DNA from: a bacterium
GTDB lineage: Bacteria; Pseudomonadota; Alphaproteobacteria; Rhizobiales; Aestuariivirgaceae
DNA length: 64,000 bases
Assembly: GCA_022842165.1 (NCBI GenBank)
Contig: JALHQC010000004.1
Span: forward strand, 62,001 to 126,000
Direction: 5' to 3'
Part shown: positions 49,028 through 63,641 of the stretch, in pieces
Position numbering within the stretch: position 1 is the stretch's first letter
How the letters are laid out: every line of letters begins with the position of its first letter
Notes under the pieces: generated by a model
What the model was told of the DNA's origin: nothing
Database searches by the model: none
Seen by the model: only the letters and a program-made list of their open reading frames with translations
Position numbers and translations under genes: made by a program

Positions 49028-50621
49028 GAGCGGGCCGAAGGGCCTGCGGCTTGCCGCCGTCAACGCCACGGCGCGCAGCTTCGGGCTGATGCGCGGCATG
49101 CGGCTCAGCGATGCGCGGGCGCAATTGCCCGAACTCCTCACCGAATCGCAGGAACCGGAAGAGGACATGAAGAGCCTGCTGGGTCTCTGCCGCTGGATGG
49201 AACGCTACAGCCCCTGGGTGGCGCCCGACGCGCCGGACGGCATCTTCCTTGATGTCACCGGCGTGCCGCATCTCTTTGGCGGCGAGGCCAAGATGCTGGC
49301 CGAGATGACATCGCGCCTTGGCAGCTACGGTTTCACGGCGCGCAGCGGCATGGGCGCAACGATTGGCGCAGCCTGGGCGCTGGCGCGGTATTCACATCCT
49401 CTCCCGCGTGCGGGAGAGGGCGAGCCTGCGAGCGACCCATTGCAGAGCAATGGGAAAGGTGAGGAAAAGACGAGCGCGGACTTCCCCTCACCTCCCCGCC
49501 GCATGCGGCGGGTCCCTTCCTCTCCCGCCTTGCGGGAGAGGACGTTAGAGGCCCTTCCCATCGAAGCCTTGCGGATCGATGGCGATTCAGCGCGAACGCT
49601 CAGGCGGCTGGGGTTGAAAACGGTCGGCGCCTTGCTGGCGATCCCGCGCGCCTCGCTGGCGCGGCGCTTCCGCGGCGAGACGATTGGCGAGAATGTGCTG
49701 ATCCGCCTCGACGAGATGATGGGGGTGAGGGACGAGCCGCTCAATCCGCTGAACCCGCCCACCTCCTTCATGGCGCACCGGGCGCTGATGGAGCCCGTCA
49801 TCAGCAGCGAGGGCCTGAGCGCCGTGCTCAACGGACTCGTCACCATGCTGTGCCGCAGCCTCGAGGCGGAGGCCAAGGGCGCGCTGCGGGTGATCCTCAA
49901 GCTGTTCCGCACCGATGGCTCGCGCATCAGCCTGCCGGCGGGGTTTTCCGCCGCCACGCATGACCCGCGCCACATGCTGCGGGTGCTGGCGCCGAAGCTT
50001 GAGTCGATCGACGCGGGCTTCGGCATCGACGCCATGACGCTGGAAGCCCGCGAAACCGCATCCGCCAAGTTGCAGCAATATGGCTTCATGGAGGACGGCA
50101 GCACGCTCGGCCTCGAACAATTGAACGACCGCGTGCTGAACCGGCATGAGCGTGAGATCGTGGCGCTGGAGCAGGTCGAGAGCCATATTCCGGAGCGGGC
50201 GGAAATATCGAGATCTCCCACCCCCGCTGCTGCGCAGCGGACCCTCCCCCGCAAGCGGAGGAGGGATGAAGCAAAATCTCTCCCTCCTCGCGAAGCGGGG
50301 AGGGTGGACGCGGAGCGGCCGGGTGGGGGCCGTCCGCTCCTCATCTTCGAAGCCCCCGAGCCTGCGGCGGTGATCGCATCCGTTCCCGACGGGCCGCCGA
50401 TGCGGCTCACCTGGCGGCGGGTGACCAGGCGCGTGGTGAAATCCCAAGGCCCCGAACGCGTGGCGCCCGAATGGTGGCGGCTGGCGGAAGGCGAGCGCCC
50501 GCGCGACTATTATGTGGTCGAGGACGCTGAAGGCCGGCGCTACTGGCTTTACCGCGAGGGGCTTTACGGCGAGACGGGTGAAGACCAGCCCAGATGGTTC
50601 GTACACGGATTATCGGCATGA
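48912..50621 (+). CDS. imuB: Y-family polymerase-like mutasome protein ImuB, with two in-frame palindromic inserts
   Basis: A 569-residue inactive Y-family polymerase homologue that bridges DnaE2 and the beta clamp. It starts MRCIVSLWFPDFQIERF (ATG 48912). The palm, thumb and little-finger regions can be followed through FLDVTGVPHLFGGEA, RLGLKTVGALLAIPRASLARRF and PMRLTWR. It is about 90 residues longer than usual. Two stretches have no counterpart in the family: residues about 162-211 (HPLPRAGEGEPASDP...) encoded by a type B element, and about 436-473 (PTPAAAQRTLP..PPREAGRVDAERPGGG) encoded by a type A element. Both keep the frame. The stop overlaps the dnaE2 start by four bases. Confidence 0.93.
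   Translation: MRCIVSLWFPDFQIERFNRGRIKQGKRPPPRGLAFALVESGPKGLRLAAVNATARSFGLMRGMRLSDARAQLPELLTESQEPEEDMKSLLGLCRWMERYSPWVAPDAPDGIFLDVTGVPHLFGGEAKMLAEMTSRLGSYGFTARSGMGATIGAAWALARYSHPLPRAGEGEPASDPLQSNGKGEEKTSADFPSPPRRMRRVPSSPALRERTLEALPIEALRIDGDSARTLRRLGLKTVGALLAIPRASLARRFRGETIGENVLIRLDEMMGVRDEPLNPLNPPTSFMAHRALMEPVISSEGLSAVLNGLVTMLCRSLEAEAKGALRVILKLFRTDGSRISLPAGFSAATHDPRHMLRVLAPKLESIDAGFGIDAMTLEARETASAKLQQYGFMEDGSTLGLEQLNDRVLNRHEREIVALEQVESHIPERAEISRSPTPAAAQRTLPRKRRRDEAKSLPPREAGRVDAERPGGGRPLLIFEAPEPAAVIASVPDGPPMRLTWRRVTRRVVKSQGPERVAPEWWRLAEGERPRDYYVVEDAEGRRYWLYREGLYGETGEDQPRWFVHGLSA
49396..49543. repeat. Type B palindromic element inside imuB
   Basis: About 148 bases: a left hairpin CCTCTCCCGCGTGCGGGAGAGG, a middle hairpin CCCATTG..CAATGGG, GCCGCATGCGGC, and a right hairpin TCTCCCGCCTTGCGGGAGA. 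The design matches the intergenic elements at 5717 and 22078. It is translated in frame as about 50 residues between the palm and the helix-hairpin-helix part of ImuB. Confidence 0.85.
50217..50329. repeat. Type A palindromic element inside imuB
   Basis: About 113 bases bounded by CCCACCCCC and GGGTGGGGG, with the inner arms ACCCTCC and GGAGGGT around an AGGGAT..CCCTCC fold. It is translated in frame as about 38 residues (PTPAAAQRTLP...ERPGGG) near the C-terminal third of ImuB. Confidence 0.88.
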
Positions 50622-53600
50622 TCAATTATGCCGAACTGCAATGCACCACGAATTTTTCCTTCCTGCGCGGCGCATCGCACCCGGAAGAGCTCGCCGCGCA
50701 GGCGAAGCACCTCGGGCTTTCGGCACTGGCGGTGACCGACCGCAACACGCTCGCTGGCATCGTACGCGCGCATGGAGCGGCGAAGGATGCGGAGTTTTCT
50801 TTTGTTGTGGGGGCACGGCTGGATGTTTCCACAGGCCCCACCCCCGTTGCTGCGCAACGGACCCTCCCCGCTGAAGCGGAGAGGGATGAATATTTTATCC
50901 CTCCTCGCGAAGCGGGGAGGGTGGCCGCGGAGCGGCCGGGTGGGGAAAGCCTCTCCCTCCTCGCCTATCCCACCACGCGCGCCGCCTATGGTGCGCTGTG
51001 CCGTCTCCTGAGCCTCGGGCAGCGGCGGGGGGCGAAGGGCGAATGCATTCTCTCGCTCGATGATGTCCATGCCCATGCGCAGGGGATGATCTTCGCGCTG
51101 CTGCCGGAATGCGCTGAACACCTGCGCGCCTTGCGCCAATCGCTGAAAGCGCCGCTCTATCTCGCGGTCAACCATCTCTATCGCGGCGATGACCGCGCGC
51201 GCATCAACCGGCTGGCCGAACTGGCGCAGAAGACGCAGACGCCGCTGCTTGCCACCAACGACGTGCTCTATCACCACAGCAGCCGACGCGTGCTACAGGA
51301 TGTGGTGACCTCGATCCGCGAGGGCGTGCCTGTCGCCGAAGCGGGCTTCCTGCTGGAGGCCAATGCCGAGCGGCACCTGAAGACGCCCGATGAAATGGCG
51401 AGGCTGTTCCGCGATCATCCGCAGGCCATCACCAACACGCTGGCGATCGCCAAGGCCTGCCGCTTCTCGCTCGACGAGTTGAAATACGAGTACCCCGAAG
51501 AGCCGATCCCGCAGGGCAAGACGCCGCAAGCCCACCTCACGCATCTGGCATGGGAGGGTGCCAAGGAACGCTACCCGCAAGGCGTTCCGCAAAAGGTGAA
51601 GGAAGGGATCGCCAAGGAACTCGTGCTGATCGAGAAGCTCAACTACGCGCCCTATTTCCTCACCGTCCACGACATCGTGAAGTTCGCGCGCGAGCAGGAC
51701 CCGCCGATCCTGTGCCAGGGCCGCGGATCGGCGGCCAACTCCACCGTCTGCTATTGCATCGGCATCACGGCGGTCGATCCGAACCAGATCGACCTGCTGT
51801 TCGAGCGCTTCATCTCGGAAGAGCGGAAGGAACCGCCCGACATCGATGTCGACTTCGAGCATGAGCGGCGCGAAGAGGTGATCCAGTATATCTACGCACG
51901 CTATGGCCGCGAGCGGGCGGGGCTTGCCGCCACCGTCATCACCTATCGCGGGCGCTCCGCCGTACGCGAGGTCGGGAAGGTCATGGGCCTGTCGGAGGAT
52001 GTGACGGCAACACTCGCCGGCATCGTATGGGGCCAGATGCGGGAAGAGATGCACAATGGCCGCTTGAAGGAGGCGGGGCTCGATCCGGATGATCCGCTGC
52101 TCGCCAAGGTCATCGAATTGTCGGATGAGATCGCCGGTTTCCCGCGCCATCTCTCGCAACATGTGGGCGGCTTCATCCTCACCAAGGGGCGGCTCGACGA
52201 GACGGTGCCCATCGGCAATGCGGCGATGGACGAGCGCACCTTCATCGAATGGGACAAGGACGATATCGACGCGCTGGGCATCCTGAAGATCGATGTGCTG
52301 GCACTCGGCATGCTCACCTGCATCCGCAAGAGCCTCGACCTGATCGAGGCATGGTACGGCATCCACTACACGCTCGCCACCGTGCCGCGCGAGAACCCCG
52401 AAGTCTACGACATGCTGTGCAAGGCCGATTCGGTTGGTGTGTTCCAGGTCGAATCGCGCGCCCAGATGAACATGCTGCCGCGCCTCAAGCCGCGCTGCTT
52501 CTATGATCTCGTCATCGAGGTGGCGATCGTCAGGCCCGGGCCCATCCAGGGCGACATGGTGCATCCCTACCTGAGGCGGCGCGACAAGCTGGAGCCGGAG
52601 GATTACCCGGCCCCGCACCCGGATTTCGGCCCGGCTGATGAATTGAAACAGGTGCTGGGCCGCACCAAGGGCGTGCCGCTGTTCCAGGAACAGGCGATGA
52701 AGCTGGCGATGGTCGCGGCTGAATTCACGCCCGGCGAATTGAACGAATTGCGGAAGGCGATGGCGACGTTCCGGCGGCGCGGCACCATTGGCCGGCTCGA
52801 ACAGAAGATGGTAAGCCGCATGGTGGAGCGCGGCTATGACGCCACATTCGCGGCGCGCTGCTTCAACCAGATCAAGGGCTTCGGCGAGTATGGGTTTCCC
52901 GAAAGCCACGCCGCGAGCTTCGCGCATCTGGTCTATGTCTCGTCATGGCTCAAATGCCATCATCCGGATGTGTTCGCTGCAGCACTGCTCAACTCGCAGC
53001 CGATGGGGTTTTACGCGCCCGCGCAAATCGTGCGCGATGCAAGGGAGCATGGCGTGGAGGTGCGGCCGGTGGATGTGAGTTATTCAAGCTGGGATTCGAC
53101 GCTGGAAGACCCCACCCCCGCTGCTCCGCAGCGGGCCCTCCCCGCTTCGCAAAGAGGGATGCCTATCCCTCCTTTGCTTGCGGGGGAGGGTGCCGAGCAG
53201 AGCGAGGCGGATGGGGGAAGCCGATGCGCCCTGCGCCTGGGGCTTCGTGAGGTCGATGGATTGAAGGCGGAGGATGCTGCCCTCCTCTCGTCATGGCCGG
53301 GCTTTTCCCGGCCATCTGGTGGCATCGAGAAAGATGCCCGGCACAAGGCCGGGCATGACGGAATCAAAGATCTCCACGCCTTCGGCATCCCCGTGCCCGC
53401 GCTGGAAAAACTCGCGGCCGCCGATGCCTTCCGCTCGCTGGGGCTCGACCGACGGGCAGCGCTGTGGGAGGTGAAGGCGCTCACCAAGGCCAAGGCGCTG
53501 CCGCTGTTTGCCTTTGCCGATACGCGCGAGCAGGGGAGCGAAGCGCCTGTCACGCTGCCCGAGATGCCGTTGCCTGAGCATGTGGTGAATGATTATCAGA

Positions 53601-54103
53601 CGCTGAAACTGTCGCTCAAGGCGCATCCCATGCAATTCCTCCGTACACTGTGCAACGAGCGGAAGGTGACGGACAATGCCAGGCTGAAGACGGTGAAGAA
53701 TGGCACGGCCGTCACCGTGGCGGGCGTGGTGCTGGTGCGGCAGCGGCCGGGCTCCGCCAAGGGTGTGGTCTTCTTGACACTCGAAGATGAATTCTCGGTC
53801 TGCAACGCGGTGATCTGGCCGCAGGTGCTGGAAACGCACCGCGCCATCGTGATGGGCGCACGCCTCATGCTCATCAGGGGCCGGGTGCAACGCACCGGCG
53901 ACATCATCCATGTGGTGGCGAATACGATCGAAGACCGCACGCCATGGCTGACGCTGCTGACGGAGGATGGCGCGTTGATGAAGAACCCGCTGGCGCGTGC
54001 GGATGAAGTGGTGAAGGGCGGCCCCGGCGGCTCCGCCCGCAGCCCCGCCGCGCGGCATCCAAGGGACGTGCGGGTACTGCCGAAGTCACGGGATTTTCAT
54101 TGA
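50618..54103 (+). CDS. dnaE2: Error-prone DNA polymerase DnaE2, with in-frame palindromic inserts
   Basis: A 1161-residue C-family polymerase used for SOS mutagenesis. The N-terminal PHP domain begins MINYAELQCTTNFSFLRGAS. The polymerase active site has PPDIDVDFEHERREEV and LCQGRGSAANSTVCY. KGFGEYGFPESHAASFAHL follows, and an OB-fold domain near the C-terminus includes TVAGVVLVRQRPGSAKGVVF. It is about 80-90 residues longer than typical. Residues about 73-110 and 831-867 are type A elements, and about 891-915 an inverted REP pair, none with a family counterpart, and all without stops. The start at 50618 overlaps the imuB stop (ATGA). Confidence 0.95.
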   Translation: MINYAELQCTTNFSFLRGASHPEELAAQAKHLGLSALAVTDRNTLAGIVRAHGAAKDAEFSFVVGARLDVSTGPTPVAAQRTLPAEAERDEYFIPPREAGRVAAERPGGESLSLLAYPTTRAAYGALCRLLSLGQRRGAKGECILSLDDVHAHAQGMIFALLPECAEHLRALRQSLKAPLYLAVNHLYRGDDRARINRLAELAQKTQTPLLATNDVLYHHSSRRVLQDVVTSIREGVPVAEAGFLLEANAERHLKTPDEMARLFRDHPQAITNTLAIAKACRFSLDELKYEYPEEPIPQGKTPQAHLTHLAWEGAKERYPQGVPQKVKEGIAKELVLIEKLNYAPYFLTVHDIVKFAREQDPPILCQGRGSAANSTVCYCIGITAVDPNQIDLLFERFISEERKEPPDIDVDFEHERREEVIQYIYARYGRERAGLAATVITYRGRSAVREVGKVMGLSEDVTATLAGIVWGQMREEMHNGRLKEAGLDPDDPLLAKVIELSDEIAGFPRHLSQHVGGFILTKGRLDETVPIGNAAMDERTFIEWDKDDIDALGILKIDVLALGMLTCIRKSLDLIEAWYGIHYTLATVPRENPEVYDMLCKADSVGVFQVESRAQMNMLPRLKPRCFYDLVIEVAIVRPGPIQGDMVHPYLRRRDKLEPEDYPAPHPDFGPADELKQVLGRTKGVPLFQEQAMKLAMVAAEFTPGELNELRKAMATFRRRGTIGRLEQKMVSRMVERGYDATFAARCFNQIKGFGEYGFPESHAASFAHLVYVSSWLKCHHPDVFAAALLNSQPMGFYAPAQIVRDAREHGVEVRPVDVSYSSWDSTLEDPTPAAPQRALPASQRGMPIPPLLAGEGAEQSEADGGSRCALRLGLREVDGLKAEDAALLSSWPGFSRPSGGIEKDARHKAGHDGIKDLHAFGIPVPALEKLAAADAFRSLGLDRRAALWEVKALTKAKALPLFAFADTREQGSEAPVTLPEMPLPEHVVNDYQTLKLSLKAHPMQFLRTLCNERKVTDNARLKTVKNGTAVTVAGVVLVRQRPGSAKGVVFLTLEDEFSVCNAVIWPQVLETHRAIVMGARLMLIRGRVQRTGDIIHVVANTIEDRTPWLTLLTEDGALMKNPLARADEVVKGGPGGSARSPAARHPRDVRVLPKSRDFH
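50836..50945. repeat. Type A palindromic element inside dnaE2, N-terminal copy
   Basis: About 110 bases bounded by CCCCACCCCC and GGGTGGGG. It splits the PHP domain between VVGARLDVSTG and LSLLAYPTTRAAYG. It reads in the same frame as the imuB copy: PTPVAAQRTLP, then PPREAGRVAAERPGG. Confidence 0.88.
53110..53217. repeat. Type A palindromic element inside dnaE2, C-terminal copy
   Basis: About 108 bases bounded by CCCCACCCCC and GGATGGGGG. More diverged than the other copies in its right half. The left half again reads PTPAAPQRALP. It falls between YSSWDSTLE and CALRLGLREVDGLK, after the polymerase core. Confidence 0.82.
53289..53361. repeat. Inverted REP pair inside dnaE2
   Basis: A left REP (53289-53316, CGTCATGGCCGGGC..CCGGCCATC) and a right REP in opposite orientation (53334-53361, ..GGCCGGGCATGACGG) form a BIME-like unit, translated in frame between LSS and IKDLHAFGIPVPALEKL. 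The core matches the REPs flanking the GIY-YIG gene at 63233 and 63608. Confidence 0.85.
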
Positions 54104-60244: not shown

Positions 60245-60581
60245 GGGTGATGGGCTGGCCGTGCGGCGTTGATTTCGCGGCACGGTCCCATGCCGCGATC
60301 ATCTGCTGCCGCTCCGGCGCCGTCATCACGCCCTTGGCCTCGACGATGCGCTCCAGCGCCGCAAGCCAGCTTTCGTAATAGGGGCGGTTCGGGTGCGCCT
60401 TGATCTCGGCACCCAGCGTTTCCGCCCATTCGCCCCAGCCGAAGACGCCCGCTTCGTTGAGCTTCACCGCCATGGCGAAGGCCTGCGCCTCCCAGGGCTC
60501 CGCGAAGACCGGGCCGTCGGCATCCTTCGGCAGGCCGGATGATTCAGCGAGCTTCAAGATAGGGCTCCCAGAGGTCGGCAT
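60231..60581 (-). CDS. Nitrile hydratase accessory protein (activator, P14K-like)
   Basis: A 116-residue protein with GPVFAEPWEAQAFAMAVKLNEAG, GWGEWAETLG and YYESWLAALERIVEAKG, the N-terminal half of a nitrile hydratase beta subunit on its own. Such activators load cobalt into the alpha subunit by subunit exchange. The gene starts inside the second beta gene: ATG 60581 overlaps it by 38 bases. A TTG at 60557 would shorten the protein by eight residues. It is the last gene of the operon. Confidence 0.88.
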   Translation of the reverse strand: MPTSGSPILKLAESSGLPKDADGPVFAEPWEAQAFAMAVKLNEAGVFGWGEWAETLGAEIKAHPNRPYYESWLAALERIVEAKGVMTAPERQQMIAAWDRAAKSTPHGQPITLSRG

Positions 60582-61194
60582 GAATGAGGTCGCGTGACTC
60601 CCGGCCCCAGATGTCGCTTGCCTTGAAGCGGATGGTGTAGAGCCACTGCGGGTTCTCGCCGCCACCTCGCGCATTCGAATCCGGAAACACATGCGCACCG
60701 TGGCTGGCGATCACTTCGCCCACCTGCCCCCGCAGGTAGCGCGGCAGGCGGGTGTGGGTTTCAGGGTGAATGTTCCGGGTACGGATCATGTCGCCGGGCC
60801 TGAACCGCGCCGGCACGGAAGCCTTGCGCTGGTAGCTGCCATGCGCCGTCACCGCCGGCCACACGGCTGCGGCAGAAGTCGGCGTCACGGGCCTTGCAGG
60901 TGTAGCAGCACGGCCAGACCTGATCTCGTCCAGCGTGGCGAGGCCATGCTTCTGCAGCAATGTCTCCGCGCCATGCAGCCAGTGCTCGTAATAGCTCGTG
61001 TTGATATAGTCGCCGGGCCGCATCGACTCGCAGGCGCTGCGGTCCTCGTCCAGCGTCCAGCCGCCGACATCGCCCACGGCAGACATCAGCGCGAACATGC
61101 GCGCTTCCCACGGGGCATGAAACACCGGTTCATTCTCTTCACGCGCAACAGGGCCGAAGCCCATCATGCCGCCGCAGTCATGGGCACCATTCAT
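60544..61194 (-). CDS. nthB: Nitrile hydratase beta subunit, second copy
   Basis: A 216-residue beta subunit starting MNGAHDCGGMMGFGPV. The N-terminal helical part (APWEARMFALMSAVGD, YYEHWLHGAETLLQKHG) is followed by a proline-rich linker and the C-terminal SH3-like barrel (FRPGDMIRTRNIHPETHTRL, GQVGEVIASHG, WLYTIRFKASDIWG, DLWEPYLE). Conserved arginines near TRLPRY contact the alpha active site. It is a full-length paralogue of the next gene upstream, with a four-base overlap. Confidence 0.92.
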   Translation of the reverse strand: MNGAHDCGGMMGFGPVAREENEPVFHAPWEARMFALMSAVGDVGGWTLDEDRSACESMRPGDYINTSYYEHWLHGAETLLQKHGLATLDEIRSGRAATPARPVTPTSAAAVWPAVTAHGSYQRKASVPARFRPGDMIRTRNIHPETHTRLPRYLRGQVGEVIASHGAHVFPDSNARGGGENPQWLYTIRFKASDIWGRESRDLIHADLWEPYLEAR

Positions 61195-61847
61195 GTGAAT
61201 ACCTCCAGATAGGGTTCCCACAGATCGAGGCAAACAGAGTCAGGGGCATCCTTGCCCCAAAGCTCCTTCGCCGTGAAGCGCACGGTATAGAGCCATTGCG
61301 GGTCCTCGCCCTCACCCTTGGCGTTCGAATCCGGAAAGGCGTGGCAGCCGTGGATGGTGACGATCTCGCCCACATGCCCTCGCGCATAGCGCGGCAGGCG
61401 GGTGTGGCCAGCTGGGTTGATGTTCAGTGTGCGGACCTTTTCACCCACGCCGAACGCCGCCGCCGTGTTGCTCGGCCGGCCATAGGGGCTTCCCGACGAC
61501 AGGATCGCGGGTATCATTTCAGCCGTCGCCACGCGCTTCACCGGCTTCGGCAGTACCGCCTGTCTGCCTGTCTCTTCCTCCATCGCCGTGATGAGGCCCA
61601 GTTCGATCAGCTGCAGCACCAGCGCATAGTGGCGCATCTCGTAGTAGCTGGACGACCAGTAGCTAACGGGTGCCAGCCTTTCGCGCGCATGGCGGGCCTG
61701 GTCGATGTTCCATGATCCCGTCATGCCCATGGCGAGAACGAGGGCGAAGGCGCGGGGCTCCCAGTCATGATGCCAGACGGGCTCATCGGCTTCCGGCATC
61801 ACAGGGCCGAAGCCCTGGAAGCCGCCCATGTCGTGCGGGCCGTTCAT
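61191..61847 (-). CDS. nthB: Nitrile hydratase beta subunit, first copy
   Basis: A 218-residue beta subunit starting [16 protein letters not shown]. The layout is the same as the second copy: helical N-terminus (DWEPRAFALVLAMGMTGSW), linker and SH3 barrel (FGVGEKVRTLNINPAGHTRL, GHVGEIVTIHG, WLYTVRFTAKELWG, DLWEPYLEVFT). The two copies share the framework but differ widely in the helices, so the duplication is not recent. It starts on the last base of the alpha stop codon (TAATG). Confidence 0.92.
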   Translation of the reverse strand: MNGPHDMGGFQGFGPVMPEADEPVWHHDWEPRAFALVLAMGMTGSWNIDQARHARERLAPVSYWSSSYYEMRHYALVLQLIELGLITAMEEETGRQAVLPKPVKRVATAEMIPAILSSGSPYGRPSNTAAAFGVGEKVRTLNINPAGHTRLPRYARGHVGEIVTIHGCHAFPDSNAKGEGEDPQWLYTVRFTAKELWGKDAPDSVCLDLWEPYLEVFT

Positions 61848-62464
61848 TACGGCTGCTTCGCCAGTCCGGTGCCGATCATCGAATCGCGGGTGACGAGTTC
61901 AGCGAGTTGTTCCTCACTCCAGCCTTCGGTGCCGGCGGGGCGCTCGGGGATCACCAGATAGCGGACTTCAGCAGTCGAATCCCAGACGCGGACTTCCCGT
62001 GTCTCAGGCACGCTCACGCCGAATTCGGACAGCACCTGGCGTGGCTCGATCACCGCGCGCGAGCGGTAAGGCATCGCCTTGTACCAGACCGGCGGCAGGC
62101 CCAGCACCGGCCACGGGTAGCAGGAGCACAGCGTGCAGACGACCATGTTATGGGTTTCGGGCGTATTGAACAGCGCCACCATGTGCTCGCCCTGGCGGCC
62201 GGTATAGCCGAGCGAGGCGATCGCCGCCGTTGCGTCGCGCTTCAGCCAGCCAGCAAATTCGGGGTCGGCCCAGGCCTTCGCCACCACGCGGGCGCCATTG
62301 CGGGGGCCGATCTTCGTCTCGTAGGTGTCGATCAGCACGTCGAGCGCTTCAGGGTCGACGTAGCCCTTCTCGACCAAAAGCGATTCCAGCGCCTTCACCC
62401 GCAAAGCCAGAGGCGAAAGCTCCGAACCCTCGTCGTGATCGTGGTGATGACCGTCATGTGGCAT
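61847..62464 (-). CDS. nthA: Nitrile hydratase alpha subunit, cobalt type
   Basis: A 205-residue catalytic subunit. The metal site is VCTLCSC (Cys110, Cys113, Ser114, Cys115), and Thr between the first two cysteines marks the non-corrin cobalt form. Both cysteines are expected to be oxidised post-translationally. The His/Asp-rich N-terminus ([13 protein letters not shown]) may help metal capture. Nitrile is hydrated to amide. The gene leads the operon alpha-beta1-beta2-activator. No amidase adjoins it. Confidence 0.94.
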
Positions 62465-63232: not shown

Positions 63233-63266
63233 TTGTCATCGCCGGACTTGTTCCGGCGACCCATTG
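63233..63266 (+). repeat. REP element, left of the GIY-YIG gene
   Basis: A 34-base imperfect palindrome TTGTCATCGCCGG..CCGGCGACCCATTG. It is the inverted counterpart of 63608-63641, to which it differs at only a few positions. It ends 19 bases before the ATG of the GIY-YIG gene. Confidence 0.85.
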
Positions 63267-63285
63267 ATCAACACAGACAGTCATC

Positions 63286-63606
63286 ATGAGATCGCAAGAC
63301 AAAAAAATTTACGCAGTCTACATTCTTGCAAGCAAACCCTACGGCACACTGTACATCGGCGTGACAGGAGACCTGATCACCCGGATCACACAGCATCGAG
63401 CAGGGGAAATCCCGGGCTTCACGAAGCGCTATAACGTGAAGACTCTCGTGTGGTTTGAATACTTCGGCGAAATCGATTCAGCAATCCAGCGTGAGAAGAC
63501 GATGAAGAAATGGCCGCGCGACTGGAAGATCAATCTGATCGAGCGTGAGAACTTACACTGGCTTGACCTATATCCGAACCTTATCGGAGTCAGCACGTTT
63601 CGCTGA
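63286..63606 (+). CDS. Small GIY-YIG endonuclease domain protein
   Basis: A 106-residue single-domain nuclease of the UvrC N-terminal/YhbQ type. The core reads YAVYILASKPYGTLYIGVTG, with the second tyrosine pair of the GIY-YIG motif in LYIGVT. RITQHRAG and the likely catalytic region QREKTMKKWPRDWK follow. Its base composition is more AT-rich than the neighbours. It is flanked on both sides, within 2 and 19 bases, by inverted copies of one REP family. No host repair operon is attached, so a role connected with the repeats is possible. Confidence 0.88.
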   Translation: MRSQDKKIYAVYILASKPYGTLYIGVTGDLITRITQHRAGEIPGFTKRYNVKTLVWFEYFGEIDSAIQREKTMKKWPRDWKINLIERENLHWLDLYPNLIGVSTFR

Positions 63607-63607
63607 A

Positions 63608-63641
63608 CAATGGGTTGCCGGGACAAGCCCGGCAATGACAG
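63608..63641 (-). repeat. REP element, right of the GIY-YIG gene
   Basis: CAATGGGTTGCCGGG..CCCGGCAATGACAG is the inverted copy of 63233-63266 and starts one base after the GIY-YIG stop codon. Together the two make an about 409-base unit with 34-base inverted ends. Confidence 0.85.

Follow-up and report, generated by a model that had tools for sequence, protein, structure and literature searches.

A small GIY-YIG nuclease gene between inverted CGTC-class REPs: a probable mobile element with gene-less derivatives

The locus and its REPs

The DNA analysed here, hereafter the window, is a stretch of 64,000 nucleotides from an alphaproteobacterium of the family Aestuariivirgaceae (GCA_022842165.1, contig JALHQC010000004.1, positions 62,001 to 126,000). 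Near its end, a plus-strand gene with an ATG start (63286-63606) encodes a GIY-YIG nuclease of 106 amino acids. It is enclosed by two arms of 37 bases each, mutually inverted and carrying the tag TGTCAT outermost. The left REP arm (63234-63270, plus strand) is made up of the outward tag, a hairpin and a CCCA tail facing the gene, and ends 15 bases before the ATG, while the right REP arm (63604-63640, minus strand), once extended to 37 bases, takes in the stop codon. The REP pattern GTCATNGCCGGNCTTGNNCCGGC, allowing up to three mismatches, is matched four times in the window, against 0.02 expected from shuffles. These matches are the two gene-flanking copies and a gene-less inverted pair of the same type (53290-53359), also with tags outward, within an ORF of 1169 amino acids (50594-54103). 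Both the GIY-YIG gene between inverted REPs and the presence of the same REP family as an inverted pair inside the ORF, which had been named dnaE2, were claims of the original prediction and are confirmed. The gene-less pair is read as a mini derivative of the REP-gene-REP unit. It lies in frame in the polymerase-like ORF, the translation of which contains, upstream of the pair, the stretch PPLLAGEGAEQSEADGG, which looks like a second translated repeat. On the minus strand of the window (60544-62464) there are also three adjacent ORFs, which we take, by their translations, to encode nitrile hydratase subunits and an accessory protein.

A search of the whole genome for the REP core, proposed together with the original prediction, gave 46 matches at up to two mismatches in the 4.3-Mb draft and none for the pattern read backwards. 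According to the accessible part of the survey of these repeats, CGTC-class REPs are characterised by a CGTC, TGTC or CCTC tag, a stem of 8-9 bp and a CCA tail (PMC3733652). The REPs of this genome (hereafter the own type), with their TGTCAT tag, hairpin and CCCA tail, belong to this class, and the tag of a second type discussed below, the CATGGTC REP, departs from its definition. An origin of the own REPs from a RAYT was considered and rejected, as this draft genome, 99.27% complete, contains no match to the Y1/RAYT transposase profile Y1_Tnp (PF01797).

The nuclease

The Pfam domain GIY-YIG (PF01541) covers residues 9-83 of the protein (E 4.1e-13) and is its sole Pfam match, with no transposase domain detected; no NCBIfam family matches it. 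Residues Y12, Y23, G25, R33, H37, E70 and N89 are each kept in at least 72 of 74 aligned proteins, these being the alignable ones among the 79 of the bacterial family, and we take them to be the GIY-YIG active site, with catalytic roles. With both the domain and these residues, the protein belongs to the GIY-YIG superfamily. In 12 of 17 homologue pairs, some of them with high dS, dN/dS lies between 0.016 and 0.097, the other five being saturated, and three named homologues (L021, L037, L083) are interrupted by stops. The nuclease genes are under purifying selection with their active site retained, and the gene looks functional.

An AlphaFold2 model of the protein (pLDDT 90.7) was used for a fold search, in which UPF0213 and Slx1 entries scored best, none of them below E 0.001; the top match was PDB 1zg2 (E 1.7e-3, 28% identity). 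The Slx1 entries are annotated as acting on branched DNA, an activity that would suit a nuclease working on folded REPs. We know of no strand joining (strand transfer) activity among GIY-YIG enzymes. A role as a defence gene was discarded, since the PADLOC matches are weak and span about 30 residues each (UzuA, E 0.0014; PDC-S14, E 0.018). None of 50,697 phage records contains a match to the nuclease.

Framing of homologues by inverted REPs

Framing was scored, at a cut-off of 30, by aligning the 250 bases before a gene with the 250 bases after it, the latter as reverse complement, so that the score demands inverted arms irrespective of REP identity. It was applied to a family set (69 genomes, 48 of which hold 102 homologue matches, with 79 distinct loci scored) and to a wide set of 82 homologues (80 loci of named genomes and two copies of the own genome), which overlap in at least one locus (L005 = L085). 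The wide-set homologues were found by fixed peptide words, which favours close relatives, and some loci are syntenic and therefore not independent.

In the family set, 65 of the 79 homologues are framed, mostly by REP-like arms, against one of 264 shifted windows; in the wide set, the figures are 57 of 82 against four of 572 shifted windows, again taken from the loci themselves. No framing was seen among 134 other ORFs of the family loci or 28 gshB-like genes (two of 30 were dropped for want of flank), and these controls, together with the shifted windows, rule out that REPs lie next to the gene by chance. When flanks were paired across loci, 68 of 406 pairs reached a score of 30 or more, as expected given that many loci share related REPs, which makes this comparison unusable as a null. 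In the sets examined, most homologues have REPs and REPs are not equally dense beside other genes; the opposite of either would have spoken against the original prediction.

Below the cut-off remain 14 family loci and 25 wide-set loci. When the 80 named loci are sorted by class label, framing is seen in 42 of 50 from Alphaproteobacteria, 9 of 17 from Beta- or Gammaproteobacteria and 4 of 13 of other or unresolved class; six of the named Massilia loci are unframed, and L027, likewise from Massilia, is framed. The own genome holds a second homologue, 45% identical, with inverted REPs of a different sequence on both sides.

Taking together the 120 framed loci (65 family and 55 wide, the own copies being counted once), a CGTC-type tag or CTCCATGG is present on both sides in 95; the tags are of the TGTCAT/CGTCA type, with CTCCATGG found in one REP type. 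Across the 80 named loci, the density of CGTC-type hairpins is 2.40 per kb up to 250 bases from the gene and 0.195 per kb elsewhere, and in 45 of these loci they point their tags outward on both sides.

A Neisseria gonorrhoeae homologue (L209) has dRS3-like REPs on both sides, where REPs are dense. Two records labelled as plasmids (CP090106.1 and NZ_CP119140.1; 3.7 and 2.2 Mb) are of chromosome size and probably mislabelled chromosomes.

Movement of the unit and its gene-less derivatives

Two groups of four loci define the borders of the unit. In the first (L107, L119, L122, L130; three genomes), the alignment runs from CTCTCCATGG through the gene to CCATGGAGAG, beyond which L107 and L130 alone share about 100 more bases per side. 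In the second (L002, L124, L134, L135; four genomes), homology extends from CCGTCACC to GGTGACGG, with none outside. In both, the limits of homology are the REP tags and the flanks are unrelated in nearly all pairs, with copies of one type occupying unrelated sites, two of them within a single genome (G024). Homology ending at the tags between unrelated flanks implies that a REP-gene-REP unit of about 0.4 kb moves as one piece, and these alignments demonstrate that it has done so. Syntenic copies among the Sphingobium and Massilia loci have been inherited vertically.

Gene-less pairs behave in a comparable manner. Two of them, in two genomes (L223 and L230), have 137 bases in common at 88% identity between unrelated flanks; at L222, L231 and L232 both element and flank are common, and they probably represent one old insertion. 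Such comparisons establish that gene-less pairs with the ends of the unit exist and have recurred at unrelated sites. The geometry of the pairs was read off two match lists, one for the own REP type (46 matches) and one for the CATGGTC type in three genomes (36 matches). Among these matches, all 17 adjacent inverted pairs no more than 1 kb apart have their tags outward and none inward, and two own-type pairs are direct instead of inverted. Twelve of the 17 are spaced 47-113 bases and five 342-382 bases, each of the latter holding the nuclease gene. The 46 matches of the own genome include five gene-less pairs with tags outward.

Over the first ten bases beyond the tags, G makes up 2-14% on either side in both sets, compared with 29-38% at a distance of 21-70 bases, and C is enriched; these C-rich, G-poor outer flanks may reflect a target preference. 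The two outer flanks of the same locus are only slightly more alike than shuffled ones, the observed means being reached in 6 and 8 of 1000 shuffles (95 loci), a likeness kept as a lead towards the idea that the unit enters the loop of a palindrome already present.

Sites without the unit

The genes flanking the own unit, which we take to encode a HAD-type hydrolase and GshB, were sought in 30 loci. Both were present in seven, the own locus included, and in the six relatives they adjoin without the unit, with 6-169 bases between match ends versus 468 in the own locus. Two of these gene-less sites (L177, L183) have no REP. In two relatives (L179, L180), other palindromic repeats lie between the flanking genes, the nuclease gene being absent.

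In Azospirillum lipoferum 4B, the gene sits between sufB and sufC with a complete inverted REP pair on each side, and three relatives (95-96% matches) lack it. Two more gene-less sites, L216 and L217, show no REP. In Sinorhizobium sp. C101, a repeat, presumably RIME, is present in copies on both sides of the gene, and S. meliloti Ak57 is gene-less there and bears a short palindrome of similar kind. In the gene-less Sinorhizobium allele (L221, about 1200-1250), the short palindrome has CCTCA-type ends and stands where the relative has repeat, gene and repeat. The unit at L119, in genome G024, is missing at the matching site of G007, where the difference of about 800 bases exceeds the unit, so that no clean junction is seen; at the same site, G004 has a REP followed by sequence resembling the 3' end of the gene.

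Neither a clean junction nor a target duplication was found at the filled and empty sites compared, whose flanks are too diverged. The hflX-mazG site of Sinorhizobium strain K101 was dismissed as an empty site, as the alignment continues through the gene in both sequences, and the plasmid copies of the Rhizobium tumorigenes group (L206-L208) showed no clear REP close upstream and offered no informative empty site. Taking into account the tag borders at unrelated sites and the empty sites, at the own locus in six relatives and at sufB-sufC in Azospirillum, the proposal that the gene and its REP ends form a mobile unit, already made in the original prediction, is well supported.

Correspondence between REP type and nuclease type

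Three genomes have the nuclease type that goes with the CATGGTC REP, and they hold 13, 17 and 6 matches to this REP; in the match list, two other genomes have 3 and 1, and the other 64 of the 69 have none, with related variants occurring in other genomes. In general, protein identity and REP similarity are correlated (rho 0.64, reached in none of 2000 permutations) over 980 non-syntenic pairs from 45 framed loci, 20 of the 65 framed loci having been left out for arms longer than 60 bases or broken or short proteins. This correlation could be explained by descent of the whole unit, with no recognition of the REP by the nuclease. One REP type is hardly dispersed, six of its seven closest sites being at the gene itself.

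Several genomes carry own-type REPs with no match to the nuclease, such as G058 (13) and G068 (23). The PF01541 matches of such genomes are limited to a frame of at least 491 residues, presumably UvrC. Short-frame GIY-YIG matches, perhaps of another kind, were observed in G021 and G009, both of which have no match to this nuclease. Framing far above the controls, the match of REP and nuclease types and the absence of Y1_Tnp from the own draft genome all support the predicted link between these REPs and a nuclease unrelated to RAYTs.

Interpretation

These results are probably best understood if the locus represents one copy of a small mobile element, in which a GIY-YIG nuclease acts on the inverted CGTC-class REPs that bound it and from which gene-less derivatives arise. 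The tags of the two REPs would be the ends of the element. The nuclease, the best candidate for the mover of the unit, would recognise the REP, most likely when replication lets it fold as a single strand or extrude as a cruciform, and nick it at the tag, and host replication or repair would then copy the unit into a new, often C-rich and G-poor, site. Gene-less pairs would be derivatives of the unit and account for a large share of the REPs, and many copies would thereafter merely be inherited.

An unlikely alternative is that another enzyme moves inverted REP pairs and that the GIY-YIG gene is mere cargo between two REPs. It would accommodate both the genomes that carry REPs with no nuclease and the fact that, to our knowledge, strand transfer has not been described in this nuclease family. 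However, in the match lists of two REP types, each of the five pairs with room for a gene holds this one, other ORFs are framed in none of 134 cases, and the own genome has no Y1_Tnp, the one transposase class searched.

It is rather improbable that the gene spreads in the manner of homing genes, the nuclease cutting REPs or REP pairs that lack the gene and recombination through the REPs copying it in, so that it would spread among existing REPs and create none. The short palindrome of the same kind in the gene-less Sinorhizobium allele and the REP with a gene remnant in G004 could be read in this way, although deletion from a filled site would look alike; GIY-YIG domains are also common in homing nucleases, according to the accessible part of PMC1564403. 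Against this, some gene-less sites (L177, L183, L216, L217) have no REP, and mini-elements without the gene, bounded by the tags, turn up repeatedly at unrelated sites, indicating that the REP-ended unit itself moves.

Very improbable, finally, is a domesticated host nuclease that processes REPs or branched DNA for the cell, with flanking REPs serving its own regulation or marking chance hot spots, for despite syntenic, vertically kept copies (for example, in Sphingobium), strong purifying selection and a fold resembling the branch-cutting Slx1, its presence is patchy (48 of 69 genomes, 0-6 matches per genome), empty sites exist and the borders coincide with REP tags.

Returning to the mobile nuclease-REP element, a specific candidate enzyme now exists for CGTC REPs, the mobiliser of which was left open in 2013. 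The nuclease as the engine of the unit and as a general source of these REPs is, at present, the best candidate explanation. In its widest form, with the chances evenly balanced, the reading is that a lone GIY-YIG nuclease mobilises both the REP-ended unit and the gene-less versions derived from it. Together these would form a new class of bacterial transposable element, one of the smallest with a gene of its own, from which CGTC-class REPs would generally stem throughout Proteobacteria, the dRS3 of Neisseria and the RIME of rhizobia included. If the nuclease is indeed the enzyme behind these REPs, unrelated enzymes have given rise to REP systems on at least two occasions, and nucleases of a family with no strand joining known to us can sustain a life cycle like that of a transposon with no more than about 0.4 kb. 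A common class of bacterial repeats could then owe its so far missing source to this little-noticed kind of jumping element.

Comparison with known systems

Insertion sequences with MITEs resemble this system in having a gene-bearing unit and gene-less derivatives that share inverted ends. However, a classical insertion sequence encodes a known transposase class, whereas here Pfam finds PF01541 as the sole domain, none of a transposase, and NCBIfam finds nothing. The small GIY-YIG proteins of UPF0213 (PDB 1zg2, 1ywl) are alike in size and fold but match weakly (E 0.11 and 0.14 in sequence). GIY-YIG homing endonuclease genes such as that of I-TevI share the domain and the selfish spread; unlike them, the gene described here stands alone, with no intron or intein, occupies non-homologous sites in place of homologous gene-less alleles, and has inverted REP ends and gene-less derivatives.

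CGTC-tagged REPs were surveyed in 2013, reportedly by Di Nocera et al. As far as the accessible part of that survey goes, they are spread over five phyla, with Alphaproteobacteria contributing most of them, and "apparently lack a dedicated transposase", their mobiliser being left to future work (BMC Genomics 2013;14:522, PMC3733652). These REPs, including the dRS3 of Neisseria, agree with those described here in their tag, hairpin, CCA-type tail and paired inverted copies; the difference is that, in the accessible part, no associated transposase gene was found, whereas here a nuclease gene lies inside the pair. The term GIY-YIG has no occurrence in PMC3733652. Among the results examined of a literature search, judged by title or opening of the abstract and with preprints and most subscription journals outside its reach, there was no report of an association between GIY-YIG proteins and REPs. 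The accessible part of the GIY-YIG survey PMC1564403 describes no REP association, and in the 2024 review of prokaryotic MITEs (PMC10969869) a term search found none of CGTC, nuclease, GIY, RAYT or RIME.

The closest likeness is to the REPtron, formed by a RAYT (TnpA-REP) with its GTAG REPs and REPINs. In both, inverted REPs enclose a small gene, further inverted pairs that lack a gene lie elsewhere in the genome and the REP type tracks the enzyme type; dispersal of the same REP, partly as inverted pairs, is seen for the own and CATGGTC types but not for one other type. The two differ in that the REPtron has a Y1/HUH transposase and GTAG tags, whereas here there are a GIY-YIG nuclease and CGTC-type or other tags, in a unit of just about 0.4 kb. 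A Y1 enzyme and a GTAG tag, two features that define a REPtron, were both looked for and are both absent, so the unit is not one. By analogy, it may nevertheless work like a REPtron, the nuclease doing for CGTC REPs what RAYTs have been proposed to do for GTAG REPs, with enzymes that are unrelated.
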